NCBI RefSeq assembly: GCF_019209935.1
Contig: NZ_JAHUTN010000008.1
Location: forward strand, 62,001-126,000
Length of the DNA: 64,000 nt
Origin: Corynebacterium sp. TAE3-ERU16
GTDB lineage: Bacteria > Actinomycetota > Actinomycetes > Mycobacteriales > Mycobacteriaceae
Direction of reading: 5' to 3'
The stretch's first letter is position 1; the number at the start of each line of letters is the position of its first letter. Of the stretch, positions 44,667 through 51,874 are shown piece after piece. The notes under the pieces were generated by a model, which worked only from the letters and a program-made list of their open reading frames with translations, was not told the DNA's origin and did not search any database. The position numbers were made by a program, and so were the translations under genes.

Positions 44667-45033
44667 CCTGACACCGTGGCGTGGTCAATGACGGAGATGG
44701 AACATCTCGTGGCGGGCATGGTTCGATCATCGAAGGACGGGCCGTGAGCGATCCCGGCCGGAACGACCGGCAGATACCGTAGGGGGGTTTCCCGCCGATT
44801 CACATGCCGACGGTGTCGAATGGCGTGGGGAGTGACACCGTGGGGACCGGGAACCACCGGCATGGTTTGTTTGGGGCCGGAACGGTGGGTGATGGTCCTC
44901 ACTGCGACAGGGTTCCAACCGAAACCGGGGAGGGAAAAGAAGGGAGAATTCGAACCCCATCAATTTGAATTGGCGGGAACTAATTTCCCCGGAGGGGCTG
45001 GCGATATCCCGCAAATCGTATAGATTGAGGTGC
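44667..45033. other. merR / mycolyltransferase divergent intergenic region
   Basis: About 370 bp without a gene. A/T content rises from ~44930; TATAGA at 45019-45024 is a -10 candidate 10 bp before the mycolyltransferase start. On the minus strand TTGACC near 44684 could be the MerR -35. Nothing else is recognisable. Confidence 0.5.
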
Positions 45034-46098
45034 ATGAACGAGCTAACGTCGCCCTCCCTGTGGCGCATCCGGAATTCCCTGCGCACTTCCCTTGTCTTCT
45101 CCATGGTGGTCGCCGTCACGGCTGTACTCATGGTTACGGTCGCCGCACCCGCATCCGCCGCGGGTAACCGGGACTGGTTGCGCCCCGGTTGTGACTGGGA
45201 TGAGTCGGGTCACTGGGTACAGAAGTGCTGGGTTCCCTCGCCATCGAATGGCAGGGATATGCCCGTGCTGATCCAGCCGTCGTCCCGGGGTGGCGACGGG
45301 GGGTTGTACCTGCTCGACGGGCTGGAAGCTCCCCGGGACAGTAACTTCTGGTCACGGACGGATGTCATGAACCAGTTCCTGGACGACAACATCACGATCG
45401 TGATGCCCGGTGGGGGCCGGGGTCAGTTCTACGCTGACTGGGCGCAGGCGGGCCAGCCGCTGTCCTCCGGCTTCCCCGAGGAGATCGGTCAGATCCCGCC
45501 GTTGCAGTGGGCCCAATGGGAGACGTTCCTCACGGGTGAGCTGCCAGGCTGGCTGCAGCAGCACTTCGGGGTGAATCCGCACCGCAACTCGGTGGCGGGT
45601 ATTTCGATGGGTGCGTTGCCCACCCTCACGCTCGCGGCGCGCCACAACGACCAGTTCAAGCAGGCGATCGCGCTGTCCGGCTTCATCGACCCCGCTGCGA
45701 CAACTCATCTGCCGATGATCGCAGCGGTGGGCGTCGCCGGTTCCTCCTTCGGTGGCGGGCAGGTCTGGGAATTGTTCGGCACCTCCCCCAATTTCAGTTC
45801 CAACATGAACAAACTCGATCCGGTGGCCAACGTTCAGGGGCTCCGCAACGTTGACACCATCGTCTATTCGGGCAACGGGGTGAAGAACCCGGCGGATGAC
45901 TACCCGATTGCGCCGGCTGTGCCGCTGGCTGTTCTCGGCGAGGTCCTGATCAACATTTCGACGATCAGCTTCGTGACCAAGGCCCGGGAGCAGGGCATCA
46001 ATGTTGATCACCAGCAGGGCATGGGAATCCATACGTGGTCGCCGTGGGTGCGTCAGATGCAGTACAACCACGACAGGATTCTGGGCGTCATCGGTTAG
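45034..46098 (+). CDS. secreted trehalose corynomycolyltransferase (antigen 85 / Cmt family)
   Basis: A 354-residue secreted esterase. A long signal peptide (MVVAVTAVLMVTVAAPASA, cleavage after ASA) precedes an alpha/beta-hydrolase with nucleophile Ser in GISMGALP (~191) and a His in GIHTW (~332); the LLDGLEAPRD and FWSRTDV segments are typical of Ag85. The enzyme transfers mycolates from trehalose monomycolate to trehalose or arabinogalactan in the outer membrane (established). ATG 45034 with GAGG just upstream. It heads a cell-surface cluster. Confidence 0.94.
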   Translation: MNELTSPSLWRIRNSLRTSLVFSMVVAVTAVLMVTVAAPASAAGNRDWLRPGCDWDESGHWVQKCWVPSPSNGRDMPVLIQPSSRGGDGGLYLLDGLEAPRDSNFWSRTDVMNQFLDDNITIVMPGGGRGQFYADWAQAGQPLSSGFPEEIGQIPPLQWAQWETFLTGELPGWLQQHFGVNPHRNSVAGISMGALPTLTLAARHNDQFKQAIALSGFIDPAATTHLPMIAAVGVAGSSFGGGQVWELFGTSPNFSSNMNKLDPVANVQGLRNVDTIVYSGNGVKNPADDYPIAPAVPLAVLGEVLINISTISFVTKAREQGINVDHQQGMGIHTWSPWVRQMQYNHDRILGVIG

Positions 46099-46118
46099 GA
46101 AGATCGTATTCAGTCCCC

Positions 46119-46133
46119 GGGAATAGTATTCCC
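46119..46133. promoter_or_regulatory. 15 bp palindrome, possible operator
   Basis: GGGAATAGTATTCCC is a perfect palindrome around a central base, 21 bp after the mycolyltransferase stop. The arms are too short and A/T-rich for a strong terminator, so it may be a protein binding site. Confidence 0.35.
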
Positions 46134-46381
46134 ATCCATTGGAAAAGGTGATTCTACGCGGTAGGTGCATTTACCCGAATGTGTTAGAATATGTGCGTAA
46201 TTTCCCCGCAGAGAGTTATGGGCACAGCACGGTGATATTCGGGTGAATTACAGGGAATCCGGATATCGCAGTCGAACCCACACATTCTTCCGGATCGTTC
46301 CCGCGGTGGATCTGCCGGTTGCGTGGAGTGCCGCGGAGAATTCGCTCCGTGTTCCGCCGACTTTCAGACAACAGAGCTCAC

Positions 46382-46387
46382 TATAAT
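46382..46387 (+). promoter_or_regulatory. -10 element upstream of SGNH gene 1
   Basis: TATAAT, the consensus -10, lies 12 bp before the TTG start at 46399. Confidence 0.5.
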
Positions 46388-46398
46388 GGGAGTACCTT

Positions 46399-47388
46399 TT
46401 GCGATCTTCCCGCCTCGCCCTCCACGCTCTCGCCGTGCTCTCCAGTGCTGCGCTGGCGCTCACGGTGACGCCGACCATCGCCCAGGGCCTGCCCGGGTCC
46501 TCCGCCGGCGGCGACGTCGGCACGCTCAACAAGGCTGTCACCTCCTCATGGAGCCATGTCGACGCCAGAGCACCGGAAGGGGGAGCGGAGGTCCTCGTCT
46601 TCGGCGATTCCCACACCGGAGGCATCAACGGACGGGTGTCCACCGATGAACGTGGATGCATGCACTCGGACCAGGGTTGGCCCAGAAAGCTCCGGGACTC
46701 CCTGGGGATGGTCGACGGTCAGTTCATCGACGCCTCCTGCTGGGGCGCGATACTCGACCGTGGACCGGGAACCACCCTCGCCGACCAGGTCCGCTACGCG
46801 GAGAGTCTCGGGGGACTCGGGCCCGCGACCTCGGATATCTTCATCCAACTCGGGTACAACGAAGCATGGTCCCACGCCGGTCTCCCGATGCTGCCCTCCG
46901 CCGCCAACTGCATCATCGCACCGGATTTCCGCTGCACCGATGCCGCTGTACGACAGGGGTTCATCACCGATCCGAATGCCGTCAACACGGACGAGTACTC
47001 GGCCCGGATCGAGCCCGTGATCACATATCTGCGTTACTACGCACCCAACAGCAGGATCCACCTCGTCGGCTACACGGAGACGGTCCCGGAGAACCAGGAC
47101 ACCGTCTGCATTCGGATCGGTAGGACCAATGTCCAACGCCCCGGAACGCAGAATCTCGCCGCGATCTTCCACAACCTGCGCTCGGCTCAACGCGGTGCCG
47201 CGGACAGGCTCGGGCTGAACTTCATCGACCTCACGGCCATCACCGCAGGGCACGACAGCTGCTCGGCGGACCCGTGGCTCACCGGTATCTTCGATGGATC
47301 AGACAATCACGGTATCGGTCTGTGGCACCCGACTCCCCACGGAAACTGGGTCACCGCCGAGTCCGCACGCCATGCGATGGGCCGGTGA
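46399..47388 (+). CDS. secreted SGNH-family hydrolase/acyltransferase, paralogue 1
   Basis: 329 residues: signal peptide (ALAVLSSAALALTVTPTIAQG), then an SGNH fold with block I GDSH (69-72), a block III variant QLGYNEAW (usual GxND reads GYNE), and block V LWHPT with the catalytic His (~308). Block I with His after Ser is the type seen in OatA/PatB-like SGNH domains. TTG start with GGGAG 6 nt upstream. Six Cys suggest disulfides. Six bp before the membrane acyltransferase gene; paralogue at 48845-49822. Confidence 0.85.
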   Translation: MRSSRLALHALAVLSSAALALTVTPTIAQGLPGSSAGGDVGTLNKAVTSSWSHVDARAPEGGAEVLVFGDSHTGGINGRVSTDERGCMHSDQGWPRKLRDSLGMVDGQFIDASCWGAILDRGPGTTLADQVRYAESLGGLGPATSDIFIQLGYNEAWSHAGLPMLPSAANCIIAPDFRCTDAAVRQGFITDPNAVNTDEYSARIEPVITYLRYYAPNSRIHLVGYTETVPENQDTVCIRIGRTNVQRPGTQNLAAIFHNLRSAQRGAADRLGLNFIDLTAITAGHDSCSADPWLTGIFDGSDNHGIGLWHPTPHGNWVTAESARHAMGR

Positions 47389-47394
47389 CCGCGG

Positions 47395-48774
47395 GTGACT
47401 TCGACGAATGAGGTGAGTGAATCCCGGCATCTCGTGACGCCGACCGTGCACAGGAGACCCAACCTCCCGAGTCTCACCGGCGCAAGGTGGTGGGCTGCCG
47501 CCGCGGTATTCGTTCTGCATGCTCTGGTGTTTCTCCCCGTTTATCCGTTTCAGACCGGTGAGCTGTTCGCCACGATTCACCGATATGTCCCGATGCAGCT
47601 CGGCAGCGCAGGAGTCACCTTCTTCTTCATCCTCTCGGGATTCCTGATCTACTGGTCGAACAGTGGTGTCCGGGGGCTCGGCAAGATCCTCTACTACTGC
47701 CGCAGACGCATCACCAAGATCTATCCCATGCACCTGTTGAGCATGGTTCTCTTCATCGCAGCGTCCGCCTCGATCACCGGCGCCGGGGTGAGTCTCGCCA
47801 TGGACCTCTCCCGGCTCGAGCTCTGGCTTCCCAACGCCCTGCTCATCCACACGTGGAATCCCGACTGGGCCGTTCTCGGCGGTATGAACGTACCCAGCTG
47901 GTCACTCGGCGCGGAGATGCTCTTCTACCTGTCCTTCCCGGTCCTCGTACCGTTGGTCAACAGGGTTACCGGACGAGGGAACTGGGTGGCGTTCGGCGCC
48001 TTGTTCCTGATGTCCCTGTCCGCGATCTTCATCATCCATCTCTACGCGGGCGGCTCCAAGTCCACCGAGAACTTCTTCGTCCCCAGGCTCTGGCCGGACA
48101 CGGGTGTCTCTCCCGTCGCTGACGTTCACGCCGATCCGGTGTGGTTCGCGCAAACCGCCATTCCTGTGGATCACACCTACTGGCTCTCCTACTATTTTCC
48201 GTTGACGCGTCTCGTTGAGTTCTACCTCGGTGTGTTCGCCGCGAAACTGGTGTGGGAGAAGCAGTTCACCAACGTCTCCATAGCCTGGCCGCTCGGCCTG
48301 CTCGCCCTGTCCTACGCGGCGACGTGGTTCGTACCGGTCGCCTTCAAGATGAGTGTCGTGATGTCCCTGCCCATGACGATCGTTGTCGCCACTCTCGCGG
48401 TACGGGACATGAAGGGTGTGGCCAAGGGCATCGGAGGGCCCCGAATGGTCCTGCTCGGGAACATCTCCTTCGCGTTCTACATGGTGCAGTTCCCCGTGAT
48501 GGTGTTCATCCAGCGTTACTTCATCGCCGGCACGGCCCACGGATTCCGGGGTTGGATCGTCGCGGCCATCGCGAGTTTCGTACTCTCATTCGTCCTCGCG
48601 TGGCTCATGTTCACCTTCGTCGATGACCCACTCATGAAGGCGACCGCAGGAACGCGGAAGAACAGGAGACCCCGCAGCACAATCCCCACCGACCGGACGA
48701 ACGTGTTGTGGAGGGACCTCATGGTGCTTCTCGGCAAGGCCCCCGATCCGAGGAAAACGAATGACCGAGCCTGA
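47395..48774 (+). CDS. acyltransferase family 3 (OafA/OatA-type) integral membrane protein
   Basis: 459 residues with about 10 membrane helices. The first helix has the AT3 catalytic motif R-X10-H (R and H of ARWWAAAAVFVLHAL), and FFFILSGFLIYW is the second conserved block. Such proteins move acyl groups, usually acetyl from acetyl-CoA, to extracytoplasmic glycans or lipids. No fused SGNH domain is present; instead separate secreted SGNH proteins are encoded on both sides. In corynebacteria TmaT, another AT3 protein, acetylates trehalose mycolates (established); this may be a related surface modification. GTG start 6 bp after the SGNH 1 stop. Confidence 0.88.
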   Translation: MTSTNEVSESRHLVTPTVHRRPNLPSLTGARWWAAAAVFVLHALVFLPVYPFQTGELFATIHRYVPMQLGSAGVTFFFILSGFLIYWSNSGVRGLGKILYYCRRRITKIYPMHLLSMVLFIAASASITGAGVSLAMDLSRLELWLPNALLIHTWNPDWAVLGGMNVPSWSLGAEMLFYLSFPVLVPLVNRVTGRGNWVAFGALFLMSLSAIFIIHLYAGGSKSTENFFVPRLWPDTGVSPVADVHADPVWFAQTAIPVDHTYWLSYYFPLTRLVEFYLGVFAAKLVWEKQFTNVSIAWPLGLLALSYAATWFVPVAFKMSVVMSLPMTIVVATLAVRDMKGVAKGIGGPRMVLLGNISFAFYMVQFPVMVFIQRYFIAGTAHGFRGWIVAAIASFVLSFVLAWLMFTFVDDPLMKATAGTRKNRRPRSTIPTDRTNVLWRDLMVLLGKAPDPRKTNDRA

Positions 48775-48844
48775 CGAGATCATGTCGTCGACCACATGAA
48801 ATACGAATTTTCCCGAAAACAACATGAGAACCTGGAGTCACCAG

Positions 48845-49822
48845 ATGAATATCCGCCGTTTACCCACCCTCGCCGCCGCCCTGTGCATGGGCACCCTGCT
48901 CGCCTCCACCGCTGCACCGGCCAGTGCCATCGGGTCTTCCGGTCCCGATATCGGAACCTGGAACCGGGTGACCACATCCTCACAGAATCGTCCGGACGTC
49001 AGAGCGCCGGAGGGCGGCGCGAAGGTCCTCGTGTTCGGTGACTCGCACACCGGCGGTGTAACCCTCCCGATGTACGCGGATACGCGGGGCTGCCTGCATT
49101 CAACCCGGAGCTGGCCCGCGCAGCTCGGGGAGACGATGGGTGTCGCCGCCAATGATGTCATCGACGCCTCCTGCTACGGTGCCTCCCTCGCCGCTGAGGG
49201 TCAGACTCTCGCCGATCAGGTCCGCTACGCCGAGGCGCTCGGAGGTCTCGGCCACCGGACCACGGACATCCTCATCCAGCTCGGTAGCAACGATGACTGG
49301 TCCCTTCCGGGACTGACCATGTTCACCTCGCAGAAGAACTGCGCGGCGGATCTCCTCGGTAGCTGTGGGCAGAGGGGAATCGATCGTGGACGGTTCATCA
49401 ATCCGTCCGCCGTGACGGCGGATTCCTACGTCGCCCGAGTGAAGCCGGTCATCGACTACCTCCGCTACTACGCGCCGGAAGCCAAGATCCAGTTGGTGAG
49501 TTACGTCCGCTTCGCTCCGGAGAACGGCCGTGACATGTGTCTCAAGGTCGGTCCGTTGAACAGCGTCATCCCGGAGAGCTGGCCGCTCGCCGACTCCTAC
49601 CGAAATCTGGTTGTGGCACAACGTGAGGCAGCGCGACAGCTCAACCTCGGTTTCGTGGATGTGGATGCGGCGACCGCCGGACACGGCAGCTGTTCCGGTG
49701 ACTCGTGGGTGACCGGAATGCTCGATGGATCGGACCATTACCGCAATCTTCTCATGTGGCATCCGACGGAAACCGCGAACTGGGTCACCGCCGATCAGGT
49801 GAAGCGTAATCTCAAGAGCTGA
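48845..49822 (+). CDS. secreted SGNH-family hydrolase/acyltransferase, paralogue 2
   Basis: 325 residues, paralogous to the protein at 46399 along its whole length (shared APEGGAxVLVFGDSHTGG, TLADQVRYAEALGGLG, YLRYYAP). Signal peptide cleaved near ASA; blocks GDSH (~65-68), QLGSNDDW (intact GxND) and MWHPT (~304). ATG 48845 with GGAG 7 nt upstream. Unlike paralogue 1 it keeps the canonical block III, so it is the more likely active enzyme. It follows the AT3 gene by 70 bp. Confidence 0.87.
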   Translation: MNIRRLPTLAAALCMGTLLASTAAPASAIGSSGPDIGTWNRVTTSSQNRPDVRAPEGGAKVLVFGDSHTGGVTLPMYADTRGCLHSTRSWPAQLGETMGVAANDVIDASCYGASLAAEGQTLADQVRYAEALGGLGHRTTDILIQLGSNDDWSLPGLTMFTSQKNCAADLLGSCGQRGIDRGRFINPSAVTADSYVARVKPVIDYLRYYAPEAKIQLVSYVRFAPENGRDMCLKVGPLNSVIPESWPLADSYRNLVVAQREAARQLNLGFVDVDAATAGHGSCSGDSWVTGMLDGSDHYRNLLMWHPTETANWVTADQVKRNLKS

Positions 49823-49881
49823 CCGCTCTCCCGGTGTGCACGAACTGATCGATCAATTCCCCCGACACTTCAAGGAACGTC

Positions 49882-50319
49882 ATGAAACACTCTCACCGCA
49901 TTCTCGTCTCCGGTACCATTCTGGCGCTGACCCTCGGTCTGACCGCCTGCAACGACGACTCGGGCAAGGACGAATCGGAGACCACCACATCCACCAGCCC
50001 CTCCAGCTCCACGACCTCCACGACGCAGAAGAGCACGAAGTCGTCGACGACGGCGCCTGCGCCTGAGACATCCACCGAGGAAGAGCCCGCTCCAGTTCCT
50101 GCGCCGCCCGAGAAGCCCGCGGAGGCACCCGCCGCGGAGGCTCCGGCTCCGGCCCCTGCGCCCGCTCCTGCTCCGGCTCCGGCCCCGGCACCCGCTCCTG
50201 CTCCGGCCCCGGCCCCTGCACCCGCGCCCGCACCCGCGCCCGCGCCCGCTCCGGCCCCGGCGCCCGCTCCTGCACCGCCAGAGCTGCCGGGTGGCGGCGA
50301 CGGTCGCCCCGGTTACTGA
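49882..50319 (+). CDS. lipoprotein with Ala-Pro repeat tail
   Basis: 145 residues: signal peptide with lipobox LTAC (lipidated Cys23), a Ser/Thr/Lys-rich stretch (~28-65), an acidic Pro segment, then about 25 Ala-Pro dipeptides (~83-133) and a short Gly-rich end. AP repeats form stiff extended rods that can span the wall, as in TonB or mycobacterial surface proteins. No other domain is present. It probably belongs to the SGNH/acyltransferase cluster (60 bp gap). Confidence 0.8.
   Translation: MKHSHRILVSGTILALTLGLTACNDDSGKDESETTTSTSPSSSTTSTTQKSTKSSTTAPAPETSTEEEPAPVPAPPEKPAEAPAAEAPAPAPAPAPAPAPAPAPAPAPAPAPAPAPAPAPAPAPAPAPAPAPPELPGGGDGRPGY
50136..50280 (+). repeat. GC-rich GCNCCN hexamer repeat coding for Ala-Pro
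   Basis: Tandem degenerate units of GCxCCx with some near-identical blocks, a likely site of slippage and length variation between strains. Confidence 0.85.
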
Positions 50320-50638
50320 CCGTCTCGGGTCATACCTCATGGTCTCCGGCCGCTTCCCGTGTAGGGGAGTGGCCGATTCCGTGGTTCTCTCCACCCGCTG
50401 TCCGACACCCGCCGGACAGCGGGTGCTCTTTCTCACCGACGTGACCGATTCGGCGACCCAGGATCGGCTTGAGGGAGCTTTCCGGATAGCTCGGTGCGGC
50501 CCGGTGAGGGCTCGAGGAACATCAGGACGGACACGAGAACCGTGACGGACCCGGGACCGGTGCGTCGCCGATTACGGGGAAGCGGCCGGACACACCGCGA
50601 TCGTCATCTGGCTCGGTTGTTTCCGGCCCGCCTGAACC
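50320..50638. other. intergenic region between lipoprotein and photolyase genes
   Basis: 319 bp between convergent genes, holding one clear terminator and no gene. Confidence 0.6.
50393..50424 (+). terminator. terminator of the surface cluster
   Basis: A 12 bp perfect stem (ACCCGCTGTCCG at 50393-50404 with its complement at 50413-50424), followed by GCTCTTTCTC. Confidence 0.8.
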
Positions 50639-51874
50639 TCAACGTATCTCCTCGTAGCGTGCCAGCGCGTCCCGGCGCTCCTCCGCGTGATCGACGAGCG
50701 GCGCCGGATACTCCGACGGTAGATTCCGTATCGCGTGGATGTCACCGGCCGGAACGCCCCGCAACTCCGGGACCCAGCGGGTGATGTAGCGGGCGTCGGG
50801 ATCGAACTTCTTCCCCTGGGTCATCGGGTTGAACACCCGGAAGTAGGGGGAGGCGTCCGTACCCGTGCCGGCGCACCACTGCCACGAGTGCTGGTTGCTT
50901 GCCACGTCGAAATCGACCAGATGCCTGCGGAAGTGTTCCGCTCCCGCCTGCCACGGCAGGTGGAGATCCTTCGTGAGGAAACTGGCCACCAGCATCCGCA
51001 CCCGGTTGTGCATCCAGCCCGTCGCCGCGAGCTGACGCATCCCGGCGTCCACGATCGGGAAGCCCGTCCGGCCCCGGGCCCACAGGTCGAACTCCGCACC
51101 GGACTCGTTCCACCGGAAACCGGCGAACCGGGGGTTCACGTCACTGCGCGCCGTCTCCGGGCGGTGGTGGAGGAAATCGGCGTAGAACTCGCGGAACGCC
51201 AGTTCCCGGGCGAACGCCTCCTTGTCATCCTCCGGCGCATCCGCGGTCGCCAGTGTGGCCAGCAGGCTCCGCGGGTGCAGGGCACCGACGGACAGCCAGC
51301 CCGAGATCCGCGACGTACCGTCGATCGCCGGGATGTCCCGGTTCTCCGCGTATCCTTCCAGCCGGTCCCGCAGGAACCCACACCAGTCCCGCCACGCCCG
51401 GGTGACCGGCAACCCGTCCTCACCCGGGATGCCACCCACGGGATCATCGGCACCGTAGTCGCACCACGCCCGGTGGAACGGCGTGAATACCTTGTAGTGC
51501 CCGCCCTGCCCCGTGCGCAGGATCCCCGGATCGACGGCGTACGCGGATCCGGCGGCCTCCATCACGCCGGGGCCGAGGGCGTCCGAGACCGCCCGGTCAC
51601 GGGCCAGACCCGACGGCGTGAAGTCGGCGCTCACCCACACCTTCCCCGGGTTCAGCCCCGGAATCACCTCGCGCGGATCGCCGTCGAACACCTCCACCGT
51701 GCGGTGCGCACGGACCTCATCCAACGCGGCGTCGACGAGCGCCTGCTGGAACCCGTTCGCCGCAGGCTCCCGCACCACGACGACCCGCGCATCGGGACCG
51801 CCCGCCGTCAGGGCCGGATGATCGTGCAGGCGGAGATCCCGGCGCAGCCAGACGATCCGGTCAGCGCAGGACAC
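50639..51874 (-). CDS. phr: deoxyribodipyrimidine photolyase
   Basis: 411 residues, class I CPD photolyase/cryptochrome fold. N-terminal DRIVWLRRDLRLHDHPAL opens the antenna domain; the FAD domain contains GYAENRDIPAIDG, TGFPIVDAGMRQL, GWMHNRVRML and DVASNQHSWQW. It repairs UV dimers with light. GTG start overlaps the end of the aldehyde dehydrogenase gene by 14 nt, so the two form an operon. Confidence 0.94.
   Translation of the reverse strand: MSCADRIVWLRRDLRLHDHPALTAGGPDARVVVVREPAANGFQQALVDAALDEVRAHRTVEVFDGDPREVIPGLNPGKVWVSADFTPSGLARDRAVSDALGPGVMEAAGSAYAVDPGILRTGQGGHYKVFTPFHRAWCDYGADDPVGGIPGEDGLPVTRAWRDWCGFLRDRLEGYAENRDIPAIDGTSRISGWLSVGALHPRSLLATLATADAPEDDKEAFARELAFREFYADFLHHRPETARSDVNPRFAGFRWNESGAEFDLWARGRTGFPIVDAGMRQLAATGWMHNRVRMLVASFLTKDLHLPWQAGAEHFRRHLVDFDVASNQHSWQWCAGTGTDASPYFRVFNPMTQGKKFDPDARYITRWVPELRGVPAGDIHAIRNLPSEYPAPLVDHAEERRDALARYEEIR

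Follow-up and report, generated by a model that had tools for sequence, protein, structure and literature searches.

How might an AT3-family membrane acyltransferase without an SGNH domain of its own deliver acyl groups into a mycolata envelope, and which neighbouring genes belong with it? The question is raised by a locus of Corynebacterium sp. TAE3-ERU16 lying within a stretch of 64,000 nucleotides of contig NZ_JAHUTN010000008.1 (positions 62,001 to 126,000), analysed as a whole and referred to here as the window. In this locus an AT3 gene stands between the genes of two paralogous secreted SGNH/GDSL proteins, SGNH1 and SGNH2, and the gene of a small Ala/Pro-rich lipoprotein follows. The conserved unit is AT3, this lipoprotein and usually one SGNH protein. 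It may constitute, with a probability that we put at roughly 40%, a split AT3-SGNH O-acyltransferase whose lipoprotein arm would carry the acyl group on a terminal tyrosine in the manner of DltX.

The initial annotation of this DNA had described a split pair of AT3 and SGNH proteins, and the gene content bears this out. SGNH1, AT3 and SGNH2 are all intact and co-directional on the + strand. AT3 matched Acyl_transf_3 (PF01757) with 99.6 bits against a cut-off of 31 over residues 26-405, and since it matched no other Pfam family up to E 0.1, the limit of the Pfam search of these three proteins, no fused SGNH domain was found, nor any MBOAT family. Both flanking proteins, which share 48% identity, exceeded the cut-off of 32.9 bits for Lipase_GDSL_2 (39.4 bits for SGNH1 and 47.2 bits for SGNH2). 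No NCBIfam family was matched by SGNH1, SGNH2 or AT3 up to the same E 0.1.

The partnership is also visible in the distribution of the genes. Among 151 genomes of the genus, AT3 matches at E 0.001 or better were found in 24 and a close orthologue in only seven (E 6.5e-193 or better, the next match lying at 2.9e-26). Exactly the same seven contain the close SGNH subfamily (matches at E 2.7e-72 or better, the next at 1.3e-13), some SGNH match being present in 120 of the 151, and in all seven an SGNH gene directly precedes AT3. A second close SGNH copy is present in five of them, linked in the window genome and elsewhere in G044, G090, G144 and G046. At the level of the order, AT3 was matched at E 0.001 or better in 127/298 genomes, six of which (the window's own included) reached E 1.6e-101 or better, with the next at 4.4e-39; all six belong to the same family. 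Within that family, 39 AT3 copies at E 1e-60 or better were recovered from 36/401 genomes and 9 of the 31 sampled genera. Relatives with a name are C. meridianum, C. gallinarum, C. mendelii, a metagenome-assembled genome (MAG) of C. glucuronolyticum and uncultured Corynebacterium.

Altogether 49 AT3 loci were surveyed, namely the window, 10 further loci of Corynebacterium, 5 from the order and 33 from the family; these are not all independent, L059 and L070 being near relatives and genomes G652, G666 and G697 contributing two loci each. In 44 of the 49, AT3 is directly adjoined by a close SGNH gene read in the same direction; the exceptions are L073, L167, L173, L184 and L188. A lipoprotein ending in Gly-Tyr lies in the cluster in 48 (47 detected by filter, and L184, which falls below the composition filter, by eye); in 11 of these it is encoded on the strand opposite to AT3, yet stays in the cluster. 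The initial annotation had rightly placed an Ala-Pro lipoprotein downstream, but had treated as a mere neighbour what proves to be the most constant partner. The SGNH-AT3-SGNH arrangement that it had suggested surveying survives in part: adjacency of AT3 and one SGNH is the rule, but an AT3 flanked on either side by a close SGNH was seen only in the window and C. meridianum (L069). At L186 and L127 the close SGNH is accompanied by a distant one encoded on the opposite strand (55 and 61 bits). Loci L128-L133, where AT3 identity is about 25-33%, and L068 were scanned as well and yielded neither a lipoprotein of this kind nor a close SGNH.

The lipoproteins share one build, in which a signal peptide with lipobox is followed by a Ser/Thr stretch, an Ala/Pro-rich arm and a Gly-Tyr end. 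For 47 of them (L180, with a misplaced start, was left out and L184 not included), the length from the Cys to the end is 83-167 residues with a median of 99, and the arm consists of 23% Pro, 21% Ala, 11% Thr, 10% Ser and 9% Glu; tyrosine is nearly missing from the arms, with three in total. In 17 chosen tails the sole invariant residues are Leu, Gly and the terminal Tyr, and Pro reaches at least 90%, giving the pattern P-x-L...G-Y-end. The other Corynebacterium loci have a small Ala/Pro-rich protein downstream of AT3 that ends in ...LPGGGGGHAGY or a variant of it. Lipoproteins of the same build occur in the clusters of other genera with tails such as LTLPDFDPQAGY, LDVPGFEPRAGY and PELPQGGGGRPGY, their genes being placed before SGNH-AT3 or before AT3-SGNH.

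A search blind to the ending, which asked for a lipobox and a body of at least 70% Pro, Ala, Glu, Gln, Thr, Ser or Val by a rule set after the tails were known, returned 46 Ala/Pro-rich frames within 3 kb of AT3, 44 of which end in GY; the remaining two (L059 and L171) sit opposite AT3's strand. By this same rule, which is stricter than the filter used in the survey, no GY lipoprotein was found in six of the 49 loci (L168, L172, L180, L184, L188 and L189). In a control of 92 other loci (461,708 bases and 4,662 closed frames), composed of other AT3, SGNH and flanking stretches and thus no random sample, six frames end in GY, and none of the 62 frames passing the looser survey filter for composition and lipobox does so.

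AT3 itself carries the features expected of a protein that serves an SGNH partner. R31, H42, Y266, R272 and E275 are invariant in all 35 rows of an alignment that leaves out 14 of the 49 loci. The structural model (predicted local distance difference test, pLDDT, 84.5) places R31 and H42, the R-X10-H pair already noted in the initial annotation, within the first transmembrane helix (residues 25-46), and Y266 at the end of a long loop ahead of helix 269-287. In OafB, Tyr194, which corresponds to Tyr206 of OatA, lies in the loop between transmembrane helices 5 and 6 and is proposed, in the accessible part of PMC9833829, to help in handing the acyl group to SGNH. The column of Y266, the putative equivalent of OatA Tyr206, is common to the fused AT3-SGNH proteins of the genus, confirmed as PF19040 plus PF01757 in 5/5 tested, and to the 16 rows from triad loci (SGNH, AT3 and lipoprotein) aligned with them; it is missing in six standalone AT3 proteins. 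Judged by this shared residue, the AT3 of the window resembles those that serve an SGNH. The nearest fold in the PDB to the AT3 model is human HGSNAT, also a transmembrane acetyl transferase (best E 0.0011, TM-score 0.43); the structure search gave nothing at E 0.001 or better, and phmmer against solved structures gave no AT3 match up to E 1. A fold common to AT3 and HGSNAT is the topic of PMC12423673, as far as its accessible text goes.

The superfamily blocks with Ser, Gly, Asn and His are all present in SGNH1 (G69-D70-S71, G116, N154 and H310), and over 39 aligned rows G69, D70, S71, G116 and H310 are invariant, with N154 kept in at least 90%. The SGNH1 model (pLDDT 86.9) matches the folds of 4hyq, 5mal and 1esc. 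Block III of SGNH1 reads GYNE, which had been taken as a possible sign of a dead active site; this is rejected, because the motif retains the catalytic Asn (N154) and so gives no sign of lost catalysis. GYNE recurs in SGNH1 of C. meridianum, and the third SGNH of that species (L069:11385-12377), encoded after the lipoprotein and 54% identical to SGNH1, has GFNE. In the window genome a search returned two SGNH matches and no third copy. In the SGNH tree, the proteins of this clade cluster with the SGNH of C. mendelii and stand separate from the second copies in the other Corynebacterium genomes, so a second copy seems to have arisen more than once.

A relative in C. glutamicum gives an indication of where such an SGNH protein resides. 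NCgl1337 is described as an SGNH/GDSL protein of the mycolic acid layer with the cleavage region PATAQSSG (available text of PMC8854784), and its use as a display anchor is cited in PMC6213972, likewise seen in part. Cgl1391, annotated SGNH_hydro, is listed in Table 1 of PMC11066868 as O-mycoloylated at S45, S46, S227 and S229, and this modification, as far as that source is accessible, fits an acceptor in the outer wall or mycomembrane. Numbered from its ATG, the triad SGNH of locus L061 has Ser at exactly positions 45, 46, 227 and 229, the five other relatives compared matching the four positions in part. Ser-Ser occupies the place of the modified pair in 18/18 Corynebacterium rows and in 0/21 rows of other genera, its context being LTSS in the modified relative, VTSS in SGNH1 and TTSS in SGNH2. 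We take NCgl1337 and Cgl1391 to be one gene, and AT3 and the lipoprotein to be its neighbours, both assumptions being drawn from gene numbers together with the matching Ser positions. NCgl1337/Cgl1391 is very probably the orthologue of the triad SGNH, and C. glutamicum very probably possesses the AT3-lipoprotein-SGNH set, the three genes probably being NCgl1337, NCgl1338 and NCgl1339. Among the literature matches listed, NCgl1337 and Cgl1391 were the only C. glutamicum genes of this kind, and no mention of NCgl1338, NCgl1339, Cgl1392 or Cgl1393 was found in the mostly open-access literature searched. The accessible text of PMC7775120 did not yield the triad genes of C. glutamicum, and its table contains another AT3, ort-cg2397. 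The flanks in the C. glutamicum group resemble, solely in gene length and order, pheS/pheT on the upstream side and arg genes on the downstream side.

From these elements the following mechanism may be envisaged. AT3, in the inner membrane, would pass a short acyl group from cytoplasmic acyl-coenzyme A to the outer face, as its family and fold suggest. The group would then be loaded onto the C-terminal Tyr of the lipoprotein, either directly or via loop Tyr266 of AT3, and the Ala/Pro arm, about 100 residues long, would act as a swinging arm. Ala/Pro arms serve this purpose in E2 lipoyl proteins, and a stretch of about 100 residues, when extended, reaches up to some 30 nm. In Corynebacterium the SGNH, anchored in the outer mycomembrane by O-mycoloyl groups, would accept the acyl group on its active-site Ser and hand it to an envelope acceptor, candidates for which are trehalose mycolate, arabinogalactan, a lipoglycan or a surface protein; two SGNH copies would mean two acceptors or sites. 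AT3 would deliver the group no farther than the outer face of the inner membrane, and the SGNH has been reported in the outer membrane, so a tethered tyrosine on a long arm suits the gap. A precedent exists in DltX (in trans) and the C-terminus of PatA (in cis), which carry acyl groups on Tyr to an SGNH partner according to the available part of PMC12148441. The sequences show the conserved partnership, the Gly-Tyr end, the Ser, Asn and His of the SGNH, and the R-X10-H and loop Tyr of AT3. The more specific proposal that the lipoprotein is a long-range ferry, its C-terminal Tyr loaded by AT3 and its swinging arm taking the acyl group away from the inner membrane and towards an SGNH fixed in the mycomembrane by O-mycoloylation, is tentative and stands somewhat below the general reading.

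Several observations weigh against a tyrosine carrier on the lipoprotein. AT3 keeps its own loop Tyr, the proposed acyl carrier in OatA, so that a second carrier is not required; the idea that the tail replaces a lost loop Tyr is likewise ruled out, the residue being present in all 35 rows. The tail pattern PxL...GY-end does not resemble FXYXXF, the motif of DltX and PatA. At L184 and L188 (genus g79) and in the MAG of L073, AT3 and the lipoprotein occur with no close SGNH, and the lipoprotein may accordingly serve AT3 alone; conversely, one AT3 copy (L168) has an SGNH and no tail lipoprotein nearby, the other locus of the same genome (L166) being complete. In L073 the AT3 frame opens near residue 49, and R272 and E275 are replaced by Trp and Asp. 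The TSS site is missing from the SGNH of genera other than Corynebacterium, and the argument from distance may not hold there. Membrane anchoring of the lipoprotein is predicted from its lipobox, and the anchor may lie in the inner membrane or in the mycomembrane. A profile of the tail, run on the 151 genus genomes, hit the true place in just one of seven known genomes (G090) and gave matches at E 1 or better in 57 other genomes, mostly by chance; no further GY-ending frame of at least 40 amino acids was seen in eight inspected match loci (L192-L196, L202, L206 and L212), and the profile is too insensitive for the tail's absence from genomes without AT3 to be concluded.

Much of the same evidence is explained by an adaptor role. 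Here AT3 would pass the acyl group straight from Tyr266 to the SGNH, like an OatA cut in two, and the tail would dock the SGNH or open the AT3 cavity, its terminal carboxylate and Tyr being bound and not acylated. The invariance of Tyr266 in a column shared with the fused AT3-SGNH proteins favours this, as does the tail, which conserves P-x-L...G-Y and hence more than a lone Tyr. It is not obvious, however, why a docking peptide should need an arm as long as 83-167 residues, the lipoprotein is retained where no close SGNH was found, and the C. glutamicum SGNH is reported, in sources available in part, in a different membrane from the one AT3 would occupy; on balance we consider an adaptor doubtful, though a serious competitor. 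If the lipoprotein were itself the acceptor, AT3 would acylate its Tyr tail or its Ser/Thr-rich stretch, the SGNH would transfer or remove the group, and the product would be an acylated lipoprotein. Such a role would suit the most constant partner (48/49), which persists without a close SGNH and whose arm offers about 11% Thr and 10% Ser, but the part that recurs is the C-terminal end while the Ser/Thr stretch varies, and the conserved SGNH would be reduced to an esterase or a second step. This we regard as quite improbable.

The class of the SGNH proteins bears on another view, in which they work in the envelope as esterases or lipases, either in opposition to AT3 or independently of it, a shared substrate accounting for the adjacency. 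Neither SGNH1 nor SGNH2 matched PF19040, the SGNH class fused to AT3, their only Pfam families being Lipase_GDSL_2 and Lipase_GDSL; this weakens the carrier readings and strengthens the esterase view. The nearest solved relatives are hydrolases (1esc, an esterase from Streptomyces; 4hyq, a phospholipase A1; and 5mal, a lipase), and the Asp three residues before the catalytic His, as in the DxxH of a Ser-His-Asp triad, is absent from both proteins. In 1esc, too, the His presumably lacks an Asp at this position. On the other side, an SGNH stands directly beside AT3 in 44 of the 49 loci, and AT3 possesses a loop Tyr of the kind proposed in the accessible text of PMC9833829 to hand acyl groups to an SGNH, which makes independent or opposing esterases unlikely. 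The split acyltransferase with a tyrosine-bearing arm thus remains the reading that we favour.

Compared with known systems, this set combines familiar parts. Like OatA, OafA and OafB, it has an AT3 with R-X10-H and an extracytoplasmic-loop Tyr before the sixth transmembrane helix, and an SGNH as the likely final transferase. In contrast to them, separate genes encode AT3 and SGNH, the SGNH belongs to the Lipase_GDSL_2 and not the PF19040 class and is without Asp at His-3, a Gly-Tyr lipoprotein is added, and the C. glutamicum SGNH is reported in the mycolic acid layer (PMC8854784, available text). The division into a membrane acyltransferase and an SGNH is reminiscent of DltB/DltD/DltX and PatA/PatB; Dlt likewise has a third, small membrane-anchored protein, in which a Tyr near the C-terminus carries the acyl group (PMC12148441, accessible part). 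Here a small anchored protein is encoded with the acyltransferase in 48/49 loci and the SGNH in 44/49; AT3 replaces MBOAT, however, and the third protein is a lipoprotein with a long Ala/Pro arm rather than a transmembrane microprotein, its tail PxL...GY having Tyr last instead of FXYXXF and its acylation on Tyr being putative. TmaT, an AT3 that acetylates trehalose corynomycolate, offers the example of a standalone AT3 in Corynebacterium, but the six standalone AT3 proteins mentioned above (about 370-415 amino acids) lack, besides the loop Tyr, a large part of that loop; we call them TmaT-like by assumption, the label not stemming from a comparison with NCgl2759. NCgl1337/Cgl1391 resembles the triad SGNH in class, in its cleavage region and in the four modified Ser numbers that match L061, but attracted study for its use as an anchor and for its modification, the available parts of those reports giving it no enzymatic function and drawing no link to AT3 or a lipoprotein. 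Finally, SucT-like fusions (L095 and kin) also join AT3 with SGNH and occur in 5/7 triad-bearing genomes of the genus, but as one fused protein; L095 scored 493.6 bits with the NCBIfam SucT model, below its cut-off of 1275. These are the AT3 frames of at least 700 amino acids, present in all of the seven except G000 and G023; in the window genome no such frame and no AT3-SGNH fusion was found.

Whether standalone AT3 proteins need a partner is asked in PMC9833829 and PMC9558356, and the former states that partners may exist, as far as these texts are accessible. For the AT3 family described here, partners can be named from conservation, namely the SGNH and the Gly-Tyr lipoprotein, and partners are thereby also proposed for the O-mycoloylated SGNH protein of C. 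glutamicum. In the literature searched, which was covered by titles and the beginnings of abstracts and was mostly open-access, no AT3 system was found to include a lipoprotein of this kind; the parts are of known kinds, and their combination and the Gly-Tyr arm appear to be new. If the tyrosine were a carrier, acyl groups would cross the mycolata envelope on a tethered tyrosine. If the lipoprotein were a ferry, it would represent a kind of carrier that was found undescribed for any AT3 in the literature searched, a DltX-like solution with different parts, and a partner of the sort that PMC9833829, in its accessible part, says may exist for a standalone AT3.

The features of the locus are collected in Table 1. 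The genes are separated by 6 base pairs (SGNH1-AT3), 49 base pairs (AT3-SGNH2) and 59 base pairs (SGNH2-lipoprotein), and 300 base pairs lie between the upstream esterase and SGNH1; for SGNH2, the likelier start is the ATG at 48845, which is preceded by GGAG. Together with the hairpin behind the lipoprotein gene, these gaps fit one operon ending at that gene. By consensus matching, five terminator-like sites were counted in 44700-50700 against a mean of 3.2 in shuffles. A TATAAT lies about 10 bases before the TTG start of SGNH1 (46383-46399), so that the start codon, or a nearly leaderless transcript, may merit attention; the promoter scan returned no full match.

Table 1. Features of the AT3 locus, in coordinates of the window.
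Feature	Position	Strand	Basis and details
SGNH1, secreted SGNH/GDSL protein, 329 amino acids, TTG start	46399..47388	+	Open reading frame list, Pfam
SGNH1 residues			Ser71 (GDSH), Asn154 (GYNE), His310; TSS at 48-50, the place of the reported O-mycoloylation site of the C. glutamicum relative
AT3 (PF01757), membrane acyltransferase without SGNH domain, 459 amino acids, GTG start	47395..48774	+	Pfam, alignment, model
AT3 residues			R31-X10-H42; Tyr266 before R272xxE275
SGNH2, secreted paralogue of SGNH1	48845..49822	+	Open reading frame opens at 48824 (332 amino acids); GDSH, GSND and TSS kept
Tail lipoprotein, 145 amino acids	49882..50319	+	Lipobox with Cys23 (49948-49950), Ser/Thr stretch, arm rich in Ala and Pro, and tail PPELPGGGDGRPGY at the C-terminus
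Terminal 11 codons of the lipoprotein (LPGGGDGRPGY)	50284..50316	+	Final Gly-Tyr found again across genera
Terminator-like hairpin, 13 pairs, 3' of the lipoprotein gene	50392..50425	+	Consensus match only; likely operon end
Mycolyltransferase-like PF00756 esterase	45034..46098	+	Neighbour in this clade only; probably outside the conserved unit

The esterase gene upstream is present as first annotated. Its proposed role as a linked mycolyltransferase is rejected as a general part of the system, a close homologue standing by the cluster in only the window and C. meridianum among the 49 loci; elsewhere, mycolyltransferase-like matches were a partial one of 42% at 5.8 kb (L185) and one of 24% at 3.4 kb (L073). 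The name mycolyltransferase is itself an assumption shared with the initial annotation, Pfam giving PF00756.

Regarding the genomes in which no SGNH adjoins AT3, G449 and G472 contain only distant ones, G761, a MAG, contains none, and in G504 and G652 a close SGNH is found about 13-14 kb off on the same contig. The loci L184 (5814-6161) and L188 (6532-6885) come from a genus with small genomes (1.9-2.2 Mb), and their Gly-Tyr lipoprotein is encoded on the strand opposite to AT3. The AT3 of the C. glucuronolyticum MAG (L073:8088-9275) may be changed, broken or the result of mis-assembly. In the window genome a second standalone AT3 lies at G000:C16:123223-124236; a TmaT-like AT3 (L079) belongs to this genome.

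Two of the second, unlinked SGNH copies (L065:6669-9275 and L066:6844-9301) sit, judged by eye, between an open reading frame of about 190 amino acids resembling a ribosomal protein and one resembling an aldo/keto reductase, with no tail lipoprotein found at either place. The ribosomal-protein-like neighbour is also seen at L064, and the aldo/keto-reductase-like one on the short contig L067. At L161 (4214-5708), two successive lipoprotein-SGNH pairs precede one AT3, and both lipoproteins end in APPTLDAPGFEPRAGY.

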